A stretch of DNA of 43,661 nt, taken from positions 1 to 43,661 of IMG/VR virus record IMGVR_UViG_3300027852_000072; one strand, given 5' to 3'. The notes beneath the pieces were generated by a model. It was not told the DNA's origin and ran no database searches. It worked only from the letters and a program-made list of their open reading frames with translations. The translations under genes were made by a program, and so were the position numbers. Shown piece by piece: positions 15,225 through 43,661 of this stretch; the stretch's first letter is position 1, and each line of letters begins with the position of its first letter. Source of the stretch: a virus.

Positions 15225-15310
15225 GGTTCACCCTATTATGATTCTAAGGGGCCAGTATGTGTGTTCACACGGGCCTATGTCTAGAATCATAATAGGGTTA
15301 ATCCTAATTA
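15218..15310. terminator. Long bidirectional hairpin between convergent operons
   Basis: Arms 15218-15246 and 15282-15310 pair over 29 positions with one mismatch and one G-U. The loop holds a second short stem (GTGTG-TT-CACAC). The structure lies exactly where the rightward late genes meet the leftward nucleotide genes and overlaps both 3' ends. It probably stops transcription from both sides and protects the mRNA 3' ends. Confidence 0.85.
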
Positions 15311-15780
15311 GTCCAAATCAGTTGGTTATCGGTGTTAATCACCAATGTTGGAACAACCTGTTCCCACTCTCTCCCAGAATTAAGCCATATCTCTTTGACT
15401 CGCTCATGCGGGTATTCTTCAGCAAAAACTACACGTTGGCATGATGTGTTCAGAAGAAGTTTTATGCAATGGATACATGGTGACGCGGTAGTATAAGCGG
15501 TTTTTATTTCATACACTTTTCCGCATTGTAACAGAGCATTCTGTTCCGCATGAACAGCTTCGCATTTATCTAGATCTTCTCCAGACTTAGCATTACTTCC
15601 ACCACATGGTGAGTTGATGCAATGTGGTTGACCTGATGCGGGACCATTTCGTCCAGTGGATAAAAGATGATCGCGGTTGTTGACCAATACACACCCAACC
15701 TGTCGACGGGAGCATGTTCCCTTGCTTGAAGCTAAAACTGCCATGTTGATATAATACTCATCTGCTTCTTTAGGAGTCAT
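15304..15780 (-). CDS. dCMP deaminase
   Basis: This 158-residue protein of the cytidine/deoxycytidylate deaminase family has the zinc site HAEQNAL (H77, catalytic E79) and SPCIHC (C102, C105). The N-terminal segment CSRRQVGCVLVNN and the NGPASGQPHC loop are also typical of dCMP deaminase. It converts dCMP to dUMP, feeding dTMP synthesis. It is the last gene of the operon; its ATG overlaps the stop of the thymidylate-synthase-like gene (ATGA). Having this next to a dCMP-modifying enzyme repeats the T4 arrangement. Confidence 0.9.
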   Translation of the reverse strand: MTPKEADEYYINMAVLASSKGTCSRRQVGCVLVNNRDHLLSTGRNGPASGQPHCINSPCGGSNAKSGEDLDKCEAVHAEQNALLQCGKVYEIKTAYTTASPCIHCIKLLLNTSCQRVVFAEEYPHERVKEIWLNSGREWEQVVPTLVINTDNQLIWTN

Positions 15781-16604
15781 TGTATTTTTCCTCTAGGAAT
15801 GTATCTCACCTGTTTAACAAACGGGGTGCAAGCAACATACTGGTTTTCGGCACCCATCTTTATATCATCCATGAGATCATTGCCATTTTCATACAAGCTC
15901 AGATCTATATCTTCACGACTTTCTAGCGGCGGTGTAACAGTTGTTAATATTTCTTTCACCAATGGTACATCGCTTTCGTACATATGTTGTGATCCACATG
16001 TCAAGATTAAATCCCCAAGTTCTAATGTGCCAAACTTAGACGGGACCAAGTGTCGTAGGTTAATAGCTATCCATGCTGAGATCATTGAGAAAGTAAATAC
16101 ATCATAAACCCACCCTCTCCATATATCCGAAGATCGCATGTCTGTTTTGCAATGCAATCTATTTTCTCGTATTAGCCATTGCATTGATACTGTGCATGGA
16201 ATGTCTTTAGACGGCTTTGGGTTTTCTCGCCAAATCGTAAGAACAGCTTGTCGTGATTCCGTGTCATTGATCAGAGAAGACATGATGTGGTCTGTTTGCT
16301 CAATAACTTTTGGACCGTATGCTCCTCTAAATGTTATACCATTGTCACTATACTGCTCAATGATTTTCATGTATCTGGCAATGTCCGTGACACTGTTACT
16401 GCCGGAAAGTATCCAATATGCTTCACCGAACAGATAGCTGTAGTTAACCAACCGGTGCGGAATATCTACTATTGGATTATTCATATCTATCCGCGATTGG
16501 TACCCAAGGATTTCTCGGGTAGGTGTTGTTCTTGGAGATACAATAGCTCCATTGAGTACAAGGTCATGTAAAACACGAAGCCAAGTAGTGTTAACATTCC
16601 CCAT
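15777..16604 (-). CDS. Thymidylate-synthase-fold dCMP hydroxymethylase (or dCMP methylase)
   Basis: This 275-residue protein keeps the core of thymidylate synthase: E61, Y96 in GAYGP, catalytic C137 in IPC, the RSSD motif at 157-160, and H207-x-Y209. At the place of the base-selecting Asn (N177 in E. coli ThyA) it has Asp168 (GWVYD). In T4 gp42 that Asp is what makes the enzyme use dCMP instead of dUMP. The expected product is 5-hydroxymethyl-dCMP, or 5-methyl-dCMP if the hydroxyl is reduced away. The usual His after the catalytic Cys is Thr. Coupled starts and stops tie it to a pyrophosphohydrolase-kinase fusion. Confidence 0.8.
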   Translation of the reverse strand: MGNVNTTWLRVLHDLVLNGAIVSPRTTPTREILGYQSRIDMNNPIVDIPHRLVNYSYLFGEAYWILSGSNSVTDIARYMKIIEQYSDNGITFRGAYGPKVIEQTDHIMSSLINDTESRQAVLTIWRENPKPSKDIPCTVSMQWLIRENRLHCKTDMRSSDIWRGWVYDVFTFSMISAWIAINLRHLVPSKFGTLELGDLILTCGSQHMYESDVPLVKEILTTVTPPLESREDIDLSLYENGNDLMDDIKMGAENQYVACTPFVKQVRYIPRGKIQ

Positions 16605-17605
16605 TACATCTCTCCCATTTTTGTGAGTATGTTTTCCGACAAGGTTTTTAAATCATTGCCTTGGGTTAAGAAATCATAGCGGGTTACTTTCGGATTGCTT
16701 TTCAATCGGTTTTGTGCTCTTGTTTTGCCGACTAAAAATTGGATATAAGAATGGAAGTATTTAAACTCGTAGGGTATTTCCACTCCCTTCCATAAAGACT
16801 CGTATGCTAGAGATACATCATGCATACTATCATACATCTCAGGCCTGGTACCCGCGAGGTTTTTAAAATGCTGATTCGCCGCTTCTTTGTCTTCAGGCAA
16901 ACAGTAGATCATATGCCTGTTATCTTCTCTAAAAAACTGGTGATGCATTCCGTTGTATAGGTCTCCGCGGTAACAACCCTCACGGAACACATCACCATAC
17001 ACACAGTCTGATAACCAATGACGGTCTAAGATAACAAGTTGGTTTTTTGATATTCGTCCCGCTGCATCCAGAGTGCTTTGCATATATTGGAACATATACT
17101 CATCAATCTCTTTTGACCATGTTGAATGCATGTAATGAGCATTGTAATGCTCAACAAAGTACTCTGCCAATGTTGTTTTACCGCAGCCGTCAGGTCCTTC
17201 CAGGATGATGATACCTGTGTGATGATTCGGGGGTGATATTAAATCCTCGAGATATGGTGCTCTCCATCCATCTGGTTTTATGAGATCATATTTATGACCT
17301 CGCTTAGATTCCTCCGCAGATAATACAACCCGCTTTTGCATATTGGCTTGCATCACCCTCGTCATTCCTTCATCAACATCAAAACCATGTAGATGGCATG
17401 CACCTAAAGCAAAGACGATTAAATCTAACAAAGCATCAAACTGGCCTTCAAGATCTCCGTCTTCTCTAGCATCAATATATTCTGTGATCTCTTCGCCAAA
17501 AGCGGTAAGACGAAATTGGTATTCTTCCTCTGACAGTTCACGAGGTGGACCATCATAAGAGATTTTGAAGTGTTCGTGCATTCGTGCAATAAGTTGATAT
17601 ATCAT
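16604..17605 (-). CDS. Fusion of MazG-like NTP pyrophosphohydrolase and dNMP kinase
   Basis: This 333-residue, two-domain protein has residues 1-100 as an all-alpha NTP pyrophosphohydrolase with the metal motif EExxE (E38, E39, E42) and DALLD (57-61). Residues 130-333 are a thymidylate-kinase-like P-loop kinase with Walker A GPDGCGKT (137-144) and an LVILDRHWLSD motif. One chain could thus hydrolyse a dNTP (dCTP by context) to the monophosphate and phosphorylate the modified monophosphate, the jobs of T4 gp56 and gp1. Substrates are inferred. Its ATG overlaps the methyltransferase stop. Confidence 0.8.
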   Translation of the reverse strand: MIYQLIARMHEHFKISYDGPPRELSEEEYQFRLTAFGEEITEYIDAREDGDLEGQFDALLDLIVFALGACHLHGFDVDEGMTRVMQANMQKRVVLSAEESKRGHKYDLIKPDGWRAPYLEDLISPPNHHTGIIILEGPDGCGKTTLAEYFVEHYNAHYMHSTWSKEIDEYMFQYMQSTLDAAGRISKNQLVILDRHWLSDCVYGDVFREGCYRGDLYNGMHHQFFREDNRHMIYCLPEDKEAANQHFKNLAGTRPEMYDSMHDVSLAYESLWKGVEIPYEFKYFHSYIQFLVGKTRAQNRLKSNPKVTRYDFLTQGNDLKTLSENILTKMGEM

Positions 17606-18414
17606 TATTTATTCCTTTCTCGGCCGAGAGATTCGTTTTCAAATTTTACAATAGATGGTTTTAACTTTAAAGCTTTTGCAGGGTTGGTATCGCGGACACA
17701 GACATGGGTTATGTTACGAGATGCTTCAGGATATTTAGGACTTAGATAGCATCCCAATACTTCATTACCATAAAACTCTTTCATAGCCTCATGTGATTTA
17801 ATATCCTCCGCTGATGCCACTTTCTTTATGTCATTGATATTAGAGAAGGTGCCGAATTGTTTTACTATTTTAAATCCGGCTTTATGCAATTCATCTTCCA
17901 TTTCTGCTTTTGTAACTTCGGAGATATGGTTGTTGGCTTGCTTGTAGGTAGAACAATAAACAGGAGTGCTAAATATCAACACACCATCTTTGGATAACAG
18001 CTTCCTCATTGCTCTGAGAAGTTTCCGTCCATGTTGGATTTCCATGTGTTCAAAGACTTCAAAATTGACGATGACATCAAAGTACTTATTGATGTTCTTT
18101 AGATCTTTGTATTGCTCAACAAAGTTAAACTCATCAAACACACGGAAATTCTTTCGGGTCACTGGGTTTGGTATCTTGTTTAGATCAACACCCACATATG
18201 ATTTTGGAACTGAGTTTGGGTTCGCTCCTCCAAGCGATCTGGCGAAGGGCATTTCCTGACCACACCCAACATCGAGAACCCGCTTGCTGCGGTCTACATA
18301 CTTGGATGCAAACCCCCATCTAAACACATGCCCCAGATAATCTTTATGCGGCGAGTATTTAAACTGTGCAAGCTTTAATTGGGTCTTGTCATACTCGATG
18401 TTGTCAGTGGTCAT
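17605..18414 (-). CDS. Class I SAM-dependent methyltransferase
   Basis: This 269-residue protein has Rossmann motif I VLDVGCG (46-52), motif II around YVGVDLNK, and the post-motif NFEVFEHM, all marks of class I methyltransferases acting on small molecules or modified bases. It has no DPPY/NPPY motif of N-type DNA methyltransferases. It sits at the head of the nucleotide operon and overlaps the kinase fusion gene. It could modify a nucleotide or base-linked group, but the substrate is unknown. Confidence 0.75.
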   Translation of the reverse strand: MTTDNIEYDKTQLKLAQFKYSPHKDYLGHVFRWGFASKYVDRSKRVLDVGCGQEMPFARSLGGANPNSVPKSYVGVDLNKIPNPVTRKNFRVFDEFNFVEQYKDLKNINKYFDVIVNFEVFEHMEIQHGRKLLRAMRKLLSKDGVLIFSTPVYCSTYKQANNHISEVTKAEMEDELHKAGFKIVKQFGTFSNINDIKKVASAEDIKSHEAMKEFYGNEVLGCYLSPKYPEASRNITHVCVRDTNPAKALKLKPSIVKFENESLGRERNK

Positions 18415-18647: not shown

Positions 18648-19022
18648 CTATGTCTTCGAAGCTTTTTTCCGCGGCGACGATGTCTTTTGCTTTCCGCCGG
18701 CTTTTGATTTTTTCGACGTGGGTGACTTTTTTGATGAAGTGGAAGTACCTCCTTTAGACTTCGTCACCTTCTTGTCACCAGGTTTCGCCGCACTTGCTTT
18801 TCGTCCACGTTTACCGCATCCGTATTTCGCGGCATCTTCAGTAGACAATGTTCCGGCCTGAATCATCTTGTTGGCATAGAATCGGATATGTGATTCGTCA
18901 GCTTTAGACCCAGGACACTTCTTGGCAACTTGACCGAGAATGAACTTGGCGGATTTCGCTTTACCAATACCATCTTCAATGACACTCTTGGCAGACACTT
19001 TCTTTGCTGTTGCTTTTGGCAT
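18648..19022 (-). CDS. Lysine-rich, histone-H1-like small protein
   Basis: This 124-residue protein starts at ATG 19022, chosen because AGAGGA lies just upstream; an earlier in-frame start at 19148 would cross a strong promoter-like inverted repeat. Residues about 10-66 are a small folded domain (KSAKFILGQVAKKCPGSKADESHIRFYANKMIQAGTLS). The rest is a Lys/Ser/Thr/Ala tail like histone H1 C-termini. The domain resembles the C-terminal part of the next protein (19127-19636). It likely binds DNA, perhaps as a nucleoid or host-takeover protein. Confidence 0.65.
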   Translation of the reverse strand: MPKATAKKVSAKSVIEDGIGKAKSAKFILGQVAKKCPGSKADESHIRFYANKMIQAGTLSTEDAAKYGCGKRGRKASAAKPGDKKVTKSKGGTSTSSKKSPTSKKSKAGGKQKTSSPRKKASKT

Positions 19023-19037
19023 GATGTTTTCCTCTTT

Positions 19038-19081
19038 GTGATATAATGTTCTGCTTGATTGCAGAGGTAACATTATATCAC
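19038..19081 (-). promoter_or_regulatory. Extended -10 promoter inside a 13-bp inverted repeat
   Basis: Arms 19038-19050 and 19069-19081 are perfect 13-bp inverted copies with an 18-bp spacer, and each contains TGATATAAT on one strand. The leftward copy (TATAAT at 19077-19072) is an extended -10 element for the Lys-rich gene. The second copy faces it on the other strand. A very similar sequence lies before the 34209 gene. The symmetry suggests a repressor operator over the promoter. Confidence 0.6.
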
Positions 19082-19126
19082 GGTTAATAGGGTAAATGTA
19101 ATTACTTTCCAATGTTTTTTTGTTTT

Positions 19127-19636
19127 TTATCCTTGAGTTTTTAACCAATCTTTGTAGGCTTTTGAGCGACGTGGAGCATGCTCAGGTCCGATGACACCAT
19201 CGCGAAACAACGTTGAACGGTACCAAGAGACGTGGGTGAAATCAAACTTGGAATCAGGGAACTGTTCTTTGATAGTTGATACGATTTCTTTGTCATCCTT
19301 ATCATCAACGATAAGACTAATGGTGATAAACTTGATGGAAACATTTTTCTTTTTGACCTTGGTAGTTTTCTTAGCTACTTTTTTGGCCTTGGTTTTTTTC
19401 TCGCTGATGGTGACTTCTTCGGAAGTAGTTACATCAAAACCTCGTTTGACGGCTCTGGCTTCTTCCTGCTGTTGGTCATATTCAGCTTTGATAGCAACAC
19501 ATCGTCTGTTACCTGTTGCAATATCGCGAAACTTTTTGACAGGCTTTTTGCCAATTGTTTCAGCCATGATGTTGTAAAAAGCAACCAGCTGTTTCATGTT
19601 GTGTTGAGTGAATGAAGCGGTGATTTTCTTAGTCAT
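19127..19636 (-). CDS. Basic protein with shared small domain, unknown function
   Basis: This 169-residue protein has an N-terminal domain (about residues 1-65) with QLVAFYNIMAETIGKKPVKKFRDIATGNRRC, a Lys-rich linker (KKTKAKKVAKKTTKVKKK), and a C-terminal domain containing PDSKFDFTHVSWYRSTLFRDGVIG. The last segment matches the domain of the neighbouring 18648-19022 protein (P-x-SK, H-[IV]-x-x-Y, G). The protein probably binds nucleic acid. It has its own promoter at 19693-19721. Confidence 0.65.
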   Translation of the reverse strand: MTKKITASFTQHNMKQLVAFYNIMAETIGKKPVKKFRDIATGNRRCVAIKAEYDQQQEEARAVKRGFDVTTSEEVTISEKKTKAKKVAKKTTKVKKKNVSIKFITISLIVDDKDDKEIVSTIKEQFPDSKFDFTHVSWYRSTLFRDGVIGPEHAPRRSKAYKDWLKTQG

Positions 19637-19667
19637 GATGTATCTCCAAATGTATGTGTGTTTTTAT

Positions 19668-21030: not shown

Positions 21031-21093
21031 AGCTTTTCTCCAAGTGTATGTGTTTGTTCATATTACATTATAATCTGATTAGCAATGTTTATA

Positions 21094-21376
21094 CATCTAC
21101 TTTTTATTCCATTTAAGTCTTTCGCTTATTTGCCTTATAACGGTTTGCATCTACTTTTTATTCCATTTAAGTCTTTCGCTTTTTTGCCTTATAACCTAAC
21201 CATCTTCACATCTACTTTTTATTCCATCTAAGTCTTTCGCTTTTCTGCCTTATAACCATTTGCATATACCTTTATTCCATCTAAGTCTTTCGCTTTTCTG
21301 CCTTATAACTATTTGCATATACCCTTTATTCCATCTAAGTCTTTCGCTTTTCTGCCTTATAACGGTTTGCATCTAT
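21094..21376. repeat. Tandem ~54-bp repeats, five copies plus a partial; candidate replication origin
   Basis: Copies start at 21094, 21148, 21209, 21263 and 21316, with a partial one at 21370 (periods 54, 61, 54, 53, 54). The shared core reads ATTCCAT[CT]TAAG then TCTTTCGCTTT and GCCTTATAAC. They fill the gap between a small gene and the SNF2-type helicase, and the last full copy runs into the helicase 3' end. Directly repeated AT-rich units beside replication genes fit iterons or an origin. They are not CRISPR because there are no variable spacers. Confidence 0.8.
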
Positions 21377-22841
21377 TCCTGTAGTCAATCAACCTTTTGG
21401 CAAAAGAATCCTGAACCTTTTTCCTTTTTATAAGAGTAGGATATATCGCTTGGTGGTCATATAACCCTTTTGCCATTATATAACACAAGAACACTTGTTT
21501 TGCTTTGTTACCACTCCTCAGCAACCGTCGTAGAAACTGATCATGGGTATCGTAGTCGTGGTCAAGAGAATAGAAAACCACAACGTCGGCGGATCCTTTT
21601 TGCAGATTTAAACCGTGACCAACCGACTGAGGGTTTCCAGCGAGTAATGGTATCTTATTATTGTTCCAATTCTTTTGCAACTTAACCTTTTGAGGTCCTG
21701 TTTTTGCATCGTCAAAAAACTTGATTCTCTTCTTAAAGTACTGTTGCAGAATTTTCTTGTCGTGTTGAAATTTATAACCAATTAGTATTGGTCTCCCGTT
21801 AAACTCTTCTATGAGATTTTCTATGATGTACAACTTTTCTTTATGCAGTTCTATTACTTGTCTCTTAGACGACGGCAGAGGTTTCCCAAGCGGATCTTGA
21901 TCTTCATATATGGCACCATTACATATTTGATGCAATTTGTTAGATAAACTAGAAGCGGATTCTGCTACCAATTCTTTATTATCAATTAGAGTAAATAGTT
22001 CTGATTCAATTTCCGAATAAGCTTTCATAGCTCTCTTAGGCAAGTGTATGAATTTCTCTAGTACTATTCTCTTCGGCATGTAGACATAGTCTTCTGCTTT
22101 AAGACAAATAGCAAAAGGTGCTATTTTCTTTAGTATTTTTTTGTCTGCTCCTTTTGAGAGTTCATACTGTCTCCATTCAGGTCTACCAACTTGGTCGAAA
22201 TATTTTTCACGATAGTATGAAATCTTGGTTCCTAAACTTTGTCCTTGATCAATGATGCTCATTTGTGACATCAGACCTAGGTACCCATTTGCTACAGGTG
22301 TTCCGTTTGCAATATACCTGTACTTAAACCCTGGAGCCAATCGGTTGATCAACCATGTTCTATGAGACCCTGTGTTAGGTCCTCCTGGAGTTTTGAATTT
22401 AGATGACTCATCCACGATTAACATATCAAATGGCCAAGATTTTTTCGGCTTTCCTTTAAGTTTCTGCATTAACCATTTTAGTCCTTCTGGATTTATGATG
22501 TAAATGTCAACACCACGTTTTTTTAAAGCTAAATCTTTTCCAGGTCCATGCAAGATAGTGTATTTAAACCGTCTAAAATTCGTCCATCCTTTTATTTCTT
22601 CAGGCCAAGTCATATAGCATGGATTCAACGGTGCTACGATCAAGACCGCTTTGGTTTGTTTTCGTAATTTTCTTTTGTTGAATATCTGTAGCAGGATGGA
22701 GGTTTTTCCTAATCCTGGATCCAGGAATAAGGCGAGGTAGTTTTTGCGAAGTCCTTCTTCAAAACATAGTTTCTGGTAAGGTCTAGGTTTCCATCTCGGA
22801 GTTAAGGGTCTCGTCAACTTGTGCTTTCGTTTTGCAGACAT
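21357..22841 (-). CDS. SNF2/DEAD-like helicase
   Basis: This 494-residue SF2 helicase has RPYQ near residue 20, Walker A DPGLGKTS (41-48), the DEAH-box equivalent VDESSK (143-148), the IANGTPVANG motif III, and a C-terminal NPQSVGHGLNLQ then DQFLRRLLRSGN motif VI. It is shorter than cellular SNF2 proteins and typical of phage replication modules, often beside a VRR-NUC nuclease, as here. It overlaps that gene by about 59 bases. It probably acts in replication restart or recombination. Confidence 0.85.
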   Translation of the reverse strand: MSAKRKHKLTRPLTPRWKPRPYQKLCFEEGLRKNYLALFLDPGLGKTSILLQIFNKRKLRKQTKAVLIVAPLNPCYMTWPEEIKGWTNFRRFKYTILHGPGKDLALKKRGVDIYIINPEGLKWLMQKLKGKPKKSWPFDMLIVDESSKFKTPGGPNTGSHRTWLINRLAPGFKYRYIANGTPVANGYLGLMSQMSIIDQGQSLGTKISYYREKYFDQVGRPEWRQYELSKGADKKILKKIAPFAICLKAEDYVYMPKRIVLEKFIHLPKRAMKAYSEIESELFTLIDNKELVAESASSLSNKLHQICNGAIYEDQDPLGKPLPSSKRQVIELHKEKLYIIENLIEEFNGRPILIGYKFQHDKKILQQYFKKRIKFFDDAKTGPQKVKLQKNWNNNKIPLLAGNPQSVGHGLNLQKGSADVVVFYSLDHDYDTHDQFLRRLLRSGNKAKQVFLCYIMAKGLYDHQAIYPTLIKRKKVQDSFAKRLIDYRNRCKPL

Positions 22842-39126: not shown

Positions 39127-39654
39127 ATGAGTTCATTACGAGATAATTACGGAAGCATCAGTGGTACTAAAACACCTTTTATAAGACATGCAACAAATGA
39201 TGGTCTTGTAAGCGGCAGTATTGATGCGGCGATTAACGGTTCCGTGACACCTGTCAAATTTTATATACAACCCGCTGTAGATGAAGTTTTTGAGATTTTA
39301 TCTACGGTATTAGTGGTTTCTTCTTTAGCATCAAATCCCGCAATTGGTAAATATGGTAATAATGACTTAGCTTTAACAAATGGTGTCCAGTTTTTTATCG
39401 AGCAGGATGGGGTAGAAACCATATTGGGATCTCCTATTATTGATAATGCGGATTTAGCAGGTATATATGCTGCAAATGGCACATACGGTTTTGCTTCATC
39501 TATTAATCTAAGAACTTACCGGGCGGATTTACCTAATGCTTTTATACTTAGGGGAAAAACTTCTGACAAATATGGGATTATTGTGCAGGATGATTTATCT
39601 ACTTTGAATACTCACAACCTAAACTTAGTAGGTCTAGTTTCCACTCAAGTATAA
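39127..39654 (+). CDS. Tandem paralogue 1, probable structural protein
   Basis: This 175-residue beta-rich protein begins MSSLRDNYGSISGTKTPFIRHATNDG and is a paralogue of the next gene. Both share the start, G-S-V-T-P-V-x-F-Y-[IV]-Q-P, a LTNG[VI]-x-FF-[IV]-E segment, and a KYGI[IL]VQDDL[ST]TL ending with an NLN/S-x-x-G tail. They lie between terminase and portal, so they may be capsid fibres, decoration proteins or host-facing accessory proteins. No family recognised. Confidence 0.65.
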   Translation: MSSLRDNYGSISGTKTPFIRHATNDGLVSGSIDAAINGSVTPVKFYIQPAVDEVFEILSTVLVVSSLASNPAIGKYGNNDLALTNGVQFFIEQDGVETILGSPIIDNADLAGIYAANGTYGFASSINLRTYRADLPNAFILRGKTSDKYGIIVQDDLSTLNTHNLNLVGLVSTQV

Positions 39655-39669
39655 TATAAGGAGATTATC

Positions 39670-40209
39670 ATGAGTTCATTACGAGATAACTACGGAAAGG
39701 TAAGTAACACAAAACGGGTTGTTCTACGACATGCTACTGACGACGGTGATCCTGAAGGCGGAGATAATGCCAACGTCAACGGATCAGTAACTCCTGTTAT
39801 GTTTTATGTTCAACCCATTCTAACAGAAACCTTTGATATACATAATATTGAAATCTCAGTTAGTGATTCAGGAAATACTGGTCTCAACGATTATGGGGGT
39901 GTCTCTGGACCATTAACAAATGGCATTGTATTCTTCGTTGAACTTGAAGGGATCTTTATACCCATAGGTATTCCTATTAAAACAAATCGTGAATTGATCA
40001 ATCTAAGTGAAAGCTCTGAGACTCACGAATTTGCTGGATCAACTTTTGTTAAATCCTACCGCTTTGGTATTGCGAAGTTCGGAGAAGGTATAGGTATTAT
40101 TTTACACGGCAAACATCTTGACAAATTCGGGATACTTGTTCAAGATGATTTGACCACTTTAATCAATCATAATTTATCTATAAATGGTAATGCAATTACC
40201 CAGTTATAA
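39670..40209 (+). CDS. Tandem paralogue 2, probable structural protein
   Basis: This 179-residue protein begins MSSLRDNYGKVSNTKRVVLRHATDDG and matches the previous protein as described there. A similar RBS precedes both (AAGGAG). The divergence between the copies is large in the middle, suggesting separate binding partners. Function unknown. Confidence 0.65.
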   Translation: MSSLRDNYGKVSNTKRVVLRHATDDGDPEGGDNANVNGSVTPVMFYVQPILTETFDIHNIEISVSDSGNTGLNDYGGVSGPLTNGIVFFVELEGIFIPIGIPIKTNRELINLSESSETHEFAGSTFVKSYRFGIAKFGEGIGIILHGKHLDKFGILVQDDLTTLINHNLSINGNAITQL

Positions 40210-42540: not shown

Positions 42541-43661
42541 CAGATCGGATAAATATTGCCAATAGCCAACGTCAGTATACCGACGAGGGTTTTTTAGTAC
42601 TCCCCGCACGAATCGCACGAACTGGTATCCAAGACTATTTAGCATTTGAACTTGGACTAACTGACCGCGAACCAACCGACGTCATCCGCATATATCGTCC
42701 ACCAGAAGAAGTGTTTTCTGCTGACTCCCTAGCCTCCTTCGCCAATAAGCCTGTTACTGATAACCATCCTGAAGTTTTGGTGAATTCTGAGAATGCCAAA
42801 GAGGTAACTGTTGGCATGTCTGGGAATGAAGTTGTCAAAGATGGCATATATGCTTCTACCATGTTGCAAATAATGGACAAGAGTGCCATTAAAAAGGTCG
42901 AAGACGGACAGGTTGAATTATCAAATGGTTATGTCTCCGACTTAGTATGGGGCGAAGGAATTACTCCGGATGGTGAAAAGTACGATGCCATTCAGAGGAA
43001 TATAAAAGGTAATCATATTGCCTTGGTTAAAGAAGGTCGTTGTGGCCAACAGTGTAAAGTGTCTGATAATTCGTTTAACAACCCACAGGAGCCAATCATG
43101 GCTACAATTACTATCGACGGTGTGGATTTTGAGGTAACAGATCAAGCTTCACAAGCCGTTAAAAAACTTCAGCAGTCTTTAAAAGACTCTGAAGAAAAAG
43201 TGAAAGACATGGAAGAAGAAGACGAGGAGGAGGAGAAAAAGAAAGAAGATGAACTTGAAGGGGTTAAAAAGGACCATAAAACCGCCCTTGATAATCTTCA
43301 AGCGAAATTCGACGATGCCAAAGCGAAAATCCCAACCCCTGAAGGTTTGGATAAGCTCGTTGAAAACCGTATTGCTACTCGCGATGCTGTTCTTCGTATC
43401 TGCCCCGATACCAAGTGGGAAGGTAAAGACTGCGAAGCCCTCCGCAAAGAAGTTGTTGCAGACAAATGTCCTGAAGTTGATTTGGAATCTGTCTCGCCAG
43501 AATACATCCGAGCTCGTTTTGATGCATTGGCGGAAACAGACGGTTCCCAGTCTACTATGGATGTGAACTTATCTGCATCTGTTACACAAAAACCCCCTGT
43601 TAAAACAACCCAAACCCCTTCAACCGATGCTCGTGCAAAAATGGCTGAAGATTCTCGTAAT
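42531..43661 (+). CDS. Capsid maturation protease/scaffold (DUF2213), interrupted by contig end
   Basis: This 385-residue protein continues at bases 12-164 after circularisation. Residues 1-185 are a DUF2213 domain (YTDEGFLVLPARIARTGIQDYLAFELG, ADSLASFANKPVTDNHPEVLV, then YDAIQRNIKGNHIALVKEGRCG), which acts as a prohead protease with S/H-type residues. The C-terminal part is a Glu/Lys-rich coiled coil (about 200-260) typical of scaffold. An in-frame ATG at 43098 has a strong ribosome site and may give the scaffold alone. It lies between minor head protein and cement protein. Confidence 0.85.
   Translation, partial: MYITDRINIANSQRQYTDEGFLVLPARIARTGIQDYLAFELGLTDREPTDVIRIYRPPEEVFSADSLASFANKPVTDNHPEVLVNSENAKEVTVGMSGNEVVKDGIYASTMLQIMDKSAIKKVEDGQVELSNGYVSDLVWGEGITPDGEKYDAIQRNIKGNHIALVKEGRCGQQCKVSDNSFNNPQEPIMATITIDGVDFEVTDQASQAVKKLQQSLKDSEEKVKDMEEEDEEEEKKKEDELEGVKKDHKTALDNLQAKFDDAKAKIPTPEGLDKLVENRIATRDAVLRICPDTKWEGKDCEALRKEVVADKCPEVDLESVSPEYIRARFDALAETDGSQSTMDVNLSASVTQKPPVKTTQTPSTDARAKMAEDSRN
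43098..43661 (+). CDS. Nested scaffold protein from internal start
   Basis: AGGAG (43087-43091) lies 6 bases before ATG 43098, in frame with the protease gene, while the upstream ATG at 42531 has no such site. The internal product would begin MATITIDGVDFEVTDQ and consist of the scaffold coiled coil and the C-terminal tail to position 164 of the circle (about 196 residues). This mirrors lambda C/Nu3, where protease and scaffold share a 3' end. The protein is inferred, not proven. Confidence 0.6.
   Translation, partial: MATITIDGVDFEVTDQASQAVKKLQQSLKDSEEKVKDMEEEDEEEEKKKEDELEGVKKDHKTALDNLQAKFDDAKAKIPTPEGLDKLVENRIATRDAVLRICPDTKWEGKDCEALRKEVVADKCPEVDLESVSPEYIRARFDALAETDGSQSTMDVNLSASVTQKPPVKTTQTPSTDARAKMAEDSRN
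43536..43661. repeat. Direct overlap with contig start (circular assembly)
   Basis: Exact copy of bases 12-137, as described for that entry. One copy should be removed when the genome is circularised. Confidence 0.9.

Follow-up and report, generated by a model that had tools for sequence, protein, structure and literature searches.

Phage T4 makes 5-hydroxymethyl-dCTP (hm-dCTP) with gp56, gp42, gp1 and cd, that is, with a dNTP pyrophosphatase, a dCMP enzyme of the thymidylate synthase (TS) fold marked by Asp179 and Asp145, a nucleotide kinase and a dCMP deaminase, and the locus described here encodes counterparts of all four. Three further systems resemble it. Contigs in which cytosine modification was found by MetaGPA (PMC8670742) are associated with TS-fold proteins carrying Asp at position 177 and with PRA-PH and dCMP deaminase domains, and they also encode a carbamoyltransferase. 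MilA, the CMP hydroxymethylase of mildiomycin biosynthesis, shares with our TS-fold enzyme the Asp for cytosine and a second Asp three residues before the catalytic Cys, and is its closest solved relative. In Stenotrophomonas phage AXL3 (Axeltriavirus), gp27-gp31 provide five functions in the same order as here; they were published as a route to dTMP. T4 provides the precedent for this kind of pathway, and MetaGPA that for the association of its domains. The novelty lies in the compact, fused layout, in the wide recurrence among non-T4 phages of a cassette with five functions, and in a conserved methyltransferase linked to it. From the genes, their predicted folds and active-site residues, and the recurrence of the gene order, we infer that this operon very probably replaces dCTP with hm-dCTP, so that the phage genome would be built with 5-hydroxymethylcytosine or a derivative of it and would be protected against host nucleases.

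The sequence analyzed (the window) is an entire virus record of 43,661 bases. Because it ends in a 129-bp repeat (9-137 and 43533-43661, 99% identical) and carries genes for capsid, portal, terminase, baseplate, DUF3383 (presumably sheath-like), primase and polymerase, we consider the genome complete at about 43.5 kb, and judged from its tail genes the virus is myovirus-like. A megablast search of the 14-24 kb region against phages gave no matches. The preliminary description placed four minus-strand open reading frames in this region, and our analysis agrees: they overlap by 1, 1 and 4 bases (TAATG, TAATG and ATGA) and look like one transcript unit. The first encodes a class I SAM-dependent methyltransferase of 269 aa (17605..18414; PF13489, E 3e-19), the second a MazG-like NTP pyrophosphohydrolase joined to a P-loop kinase of the thymidylate kinase fold (16604..17605), the third the TS-fold enzyme, a putative dCMP 5-hydroxymethylase of 275 aa (15777..16604), and the fourth a dCMP deaminase of 158 aa (15304..15780; PF00383, E 1.7e-20; PHROG dCMP deaminase, E 4e-34). 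The deaminase has the zinc motifs HAE and PCxxC and is 53-58% identical to those of MW202621, PW916 and AXL3. Compared with T4, the genes form a single overlapping operon in which pyrophosphatase and kinase are fused, the TS-fold enzyme is only 23% identical to gp42, the kinase resembles thymidylate kinase, and a SAM methyltransferase is found where T4 has glucosyltransferases.

The fusion of MazG to a dNMP kinase, also noticed in the preliminary description, is real, with both folds present, but it is derived rather than typical. An AlphaFold2 model of the protein has a mean pLDDT of 92.3; its N-terminal domain (residues 1-124) has the all-alpha NTP-PPase fold and matches the MazG-like NTPase DR2231 (Foldseek TMt about 0.7), and its C-terminal domain (residues 128-333) matches TMPKs (VIA Z about 14-15). 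The MazG half also exceeds the cut-off of the PRA-PH/MazG family (PF01503, E 3e-10, residues 8-88). The kinase half lies under the Pfam cut-off and under the curated NCBIfam dTMP kinase cut-off, and is closer to PHROG thymidylate kinase (PHROG 761, E 1.4e-13) than to the deoxynucleoside monophosphate kinase family (PHROG 139, E 0.003). The fusion is shared by five near relatives (L092, L093, L094, L095 and L097), which excludes a sequencing artefact; in almost every other relative, including AXL3, PW916 and MW202510, MazG and the kinase are encoded by two adjoining genes. Most of the unfused kinases, that of AXL3 among them, have an extra C-terminal domain, weakly resembling uracil-DNA glycosylase (PF03167, E 0.0013; 2 of 11 members), which the window kinase lacks. 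The fold by itself does not specify the nucleotide, and the ligands in DR2231, the nearest MazG structure, are dUMP and dUMPNPP, which makes dUTP a possible main substrate of the MazG half. These ligands would also suit an operon that supplies dTTP, in which MazG removes dUTP and dCTP, the deaminase makes dUMP, and an ordinary thymidylate synthase and dTMP kinase follow. The four activities amount to a complete dCTP-to-dTDP route, and thymidylate synthase and thymidylate kinase are indeed the names that Pfam, PHROG and GenBank give.

The TS-fold protein itself argues against dTTP supply. It matches the thymidylate synthase family of Pfam (PF00303, E 1e-19), but its 34-54 bits fall under every one of the NCBIfam thymidylate synthase cut-offs (108-405), and its closest match in the PDB is MilA (E 9e-22, 80 bits), against 51 bits for the best thymidylate synthase. 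We aligned it with E. coli ThyA and T4 gp42 and tallied the active-site residues over 134 TS-fold relatives. What the TS fold requires, a catalytic Cys, Glu58/60 and Tyr94/96, is conserved as Cys137 (the nucleophile), Glu61 and Tyr96. Asp168, which the preliminary description had taken for the base-selecting residue, does align with ThyA Asn177 and gp42 Asp179, and the position is Asp in 131 of 131 aligned relatives; the papers on MilA, T4 gp42 and MetaGPA (PMC8670742) describe this Asn177/Asp position as the switch from uracil to cytosine. Three residues ahead of Cys137, in a KDIPC motif, Asp134 corresponds to T4 Asp145 and is Asp in 130 of 132 relatives, where E. coli ThyA has Leu143. ThyA His147 is replaced by Thr138, and the PVAI-type C-terminal tail of thymidylate synthases occurs in 0 of 132 relatives, the window protein ending in RYIPRGKIQ. 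These clade-wide departures (Asp for Asn177, Asp for Leu143, Thr for His147 and no tail), together with the scores under all curated cut-offs, led us to reject ThyA as the identity of this enzyme. We also considered loss of Trp80 as a hydroxymethylase marker and dropped it, as T4 gp42 retains Trp in the same column.

Asp168 by itself leaves the product undecided, because the Asn-to-Asp change on its own already gives a thymidylate synthase dCMP methylase activity (Liu and Santi 1992, cited in PMC8670742). The enzyme might by that account make 5-methyl-dCMP and lead to 5-methylcytosine DNA, as in phage Xp12, which shows that such phages exist; the SAM methyltransferase would then be unrelated. 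The ternary-complex study of T4 gp42 (PMC6400193) names as hydroxymethylase traits the Asp three residues before the Cys, which activates water, the missing C-terminal tail, and, at the second position ahead of the active-site Tyr, a Ser or Thr (Ser94 in T4); the T4 mutant D145N is dead, while S94A keeps about 25% activity. Since Asp134 is kept and the tail is lost, hydroxymethylation is likelier than methylation. Of the two products left side by side in the preliminary description, 5-hydroxymethylcytosine is favored by Asp134, and 5-methylcytosine becomes the less likely. In place of Ser94 the window enzyme has Gly94, as do 130 of 132 relatives (Gly), and for this reason we describe it as working like gp42 and not as a strict gp42-type member. 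Arg118 and Ser158 align with MilA Lys133 and Ala176, which according to the MilA paper make that enzyme prefer ribose to deoxyribose. Because this pair is replaced, dCMP and not CMP is the expected substrate, and we rejected a MilA-type CMP hydroxymethylase as the identity. Its residues make putative dCMP 5-hydroxymethylase the best assignment for the TS-fold enzyme.

Restriction data bear on the same choice, given that Eam1105I and AhdI share a site. Of 37 restriction enzymes, 35 fail to cut AXL3 DNA, and the sites of the 2 that do cut it consist of A and T alone; enzymes whose site contains G or C, KpnI and Eam1105I among them, leave it intact (AXL3 paper). In contrast, the fully 5-methylated DNA of Xp12 is cut completely by KpnI and AhdI (Xp12 paper). 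AXL3 DNA is therefore probably something other than plain 5-methylcytosine DNA, a comparison made across laboratories and isoschizomers. Taken with Asp134 and the lost tail, this makes the dCMP methylase route improbable. The authors of the AXL3 paper interpret its thymidylate genes as a dTMP pathway, but AXL3 encodes a separate ThyX and its DNA is heavily restriction-resistant; with the active-site residues and scores of the TS-fold protein, this leaves dTTP supply as a highly improbable reading. Across related loci ThyX is uninformative as proof of a separate dTMP route, since it is present in only 5 of 50 records; no ThyX was found in the window genome.

For the window operon, we accordingly keep hm-dCTP synthesis as the preferred reading and propose the following steps. 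The MazG half would cut dCTP, and probably dUTP, to the monophosphate; the TS-fold enzyme would place a hydroxymethyl group on C5 of dCMP, using methylene-tetrahydrofolate; the kinase half would phosphorylate hm-dCMP, with a host NDP kinase completing hm-dCTP; and the dCMP deaminase would divert spare dCMP to dUMP, from which the host would make dTMP. Finally, the methyltransferase might modify the hydroxymethylated product, as nucleotide or as base, the new oxygen being the simplest site. The order dCTP to dCMP to C5-substituted dCMP to diphosphate had been suggested in the preliminary description, and the active-site residues, the predicted folds and conserved synteny support it.

That synteny extends well beyond the window. 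As a single query the TS protein had no matches among viral contigs, and its relatives there came from an alignment-based scan. The order methyltransferase, MazG, kinase, TS-fold enzyme, deaminase was found in 46 of 67 loci with both a methyltransferase and a TS-fold gene (viral contigs, methyltransferase query), most of the others missing one member, and in 40 of the 81 rows from the TS-protein search (window included). Recurrence at this level argues that the cassette is not a chance arrangement. Asp occupies the base-selecting position in all 80 loci found with the TS-fold protein; the methyltransferase is present in 54 of the 80 records, leaving about a third of Asp-type TS loci without it. 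Five functions in the same order are also present in AXL3, in Pseudoxanthomonas phage PW916 and in two Manatee Spring phages, the kinase reading frames of PW916 and MW202621 having been read directly from the sequence. By their record names, one of the Manatee Spring phages is a siphovirus and the other a podovirus. The cassette is widespread, in dozens of unrelated, non-T4 phages.

The methyltransferase is, with confidence, a class I SAM methyltransferase by its Pfam match and its AlphaFold2 model (pLDDT 89.6). The model matches Rossmann methyltransferases at Z 16-18.6, and the highest score (Z 18.6) belongs to CmoM, an enzyme that adds a methyl group to a substituent at C5 of a tRNA uridine; we take this match as a hint only, because the structural neighbors are numerous and tied. 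A phmmer search of the protein against the PDB gave no matches. The (D/N/S)PP(Y/F) motif IV of DNA N4-cytosine/N6-adenine methyltransferases is absent, the position reading NFEVFEHM, with no DPPY-like motif in the invariant columns, and a C5-methyltransferase motif was not found in the protein. The family is largely restricted to phages: among 50,697 phage records only 5, from four phages, have a relative, and each of these carries the cassette; close homologues among species genomes are few, two of them on long contigs that carry all five functions.

It is quite possible that this enzyme stands outside the base-modification pathway and acts on RNA, protein or a small molecule, being linked by chance or having an independent counter-defence role. 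In a sister clade from actinophage-like contigs the methyltransferase adjoins the terminase on records of 57-64 kb, and TS, deaminase, MazG and kinase are all absent there, which means that the enzyme may have a target other than a hydroxymethylated base. The Asp-type TS loci without a methyltransferase and the generic structural neighbors fit this too. In the methyltransferase tree, the loci that lack TS are dispersed (6 changes), with one cluster near L012/L025/L014. Against an unrelated role stand the GenBank phages, where the methyltransferase is found only alongside the cassette, and its constant place before MazG in siphovirus, podovirus and myovirus-like genomes and in a long cellular contig (L173) that carries the cassette.

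No other candidate for a decorating enzyme was recognized. Where the MetaGPA contigs have a carbamoyltransferase, this clade has the methyltransferase in the cassette: the carbamoyltransferase C-terminal domain (PF16861) was found in 0 of 76 related records, carbamoyltransferases were absent from records with and without the methyltransferase alike, and no scanned protein of the window matched one. Searching the window genome for Glycos_transf_1 gave no hit, and among its scanned proteins those from about 200 aa upward matched head, tail or replication families or nothing. The methyltransferase is therefore the sole recognized candidate in a complete genome, and as it is a conserved member of the cassette, a further cytosine derivative is plausible. 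O-methylation of hydroxymethylcytosine is our leading guess for its nature. That the enzyme O-methylates hydroxymethylated dCMP, dCTP or DNA, so that these phages carry 5-methoxymethylcytosine or another methylated hydroxymethylcytosine, we put forward as a tentative and rather doubtful proposal.

In summary, two residues, Asp for Asn177 and Asp for Leu143, offer a sequence test that reclassifies many phage 'thymidylate synthases', and the cassette could explain why the DNA of the cultured phage AXL3 resists restriction. To our knowledge, 5-methoxymethylcytosine has so far had no description as a natural DNA base; if the methyltransferase does decorate the base, the cassette would point to a new natural DNA base.

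The window carries a direct repeat of 129 bases with 99% identity at its two ends (9-137 and 43533-43661), and the record is therefore a complete, circularly assembled genome of ~43.5 kb. A tandem repeat of ~5 copies with a unit of 54-66 nt lies downstream of the helicase gene (21093-21380), and the terminase and portal genes are separated by two adjacent paralogous genes (39127-39654 and 39670-40209), which share 74% identity at their starts. In addition, an intergenic element recurs as 85-nt copies at 19657, 20024, 20275, 20718, and 33287. The best copies read TTTACA-17-TATAATGGTCC on the minus strand and have small minus-strand genes directly downstream; they resemble a copied sigma-70 promoter plus leader.

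Directly upstream of the cassette, two small, lysine-rich, histone-like proteins are encoded (18648-19636), and a similar lysine-rich ORF directly precedes the methyltransferase gene of the related locus L004. Relatives of the cassette methyltransferase are also encoded by each of four actinophage-like contigs (L014, L017, L025, and L028), in several of which the gene adjoins the terminase; no TS, deaminase, MazG, or kinase gene was found on these four records.

In most cassettes, the kinase carries an extra C-terminal domain (L006:5526-5999, L041:7691-8095, and relatives; alignment A10) with weak likeness to uracil-DNA glycosylase (PF03167), which is missing in the window. This domain could discriminate between cytosine forms or could be a degenerate binding domain. 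Finally, in Pelagibacter phages HTVC119P (L002:5508-6792) and HTVC200P (L003:5511-6789), the gene for a small kinase precedes one for an Asp-type TS-fold protein; their annotations are hypothetical protein and thymidylate synthase, respectively. This pair is a minimal, two-gene version of the cassette, and hydroxymethylcytosine may also occur in these Pelagibacter phages.
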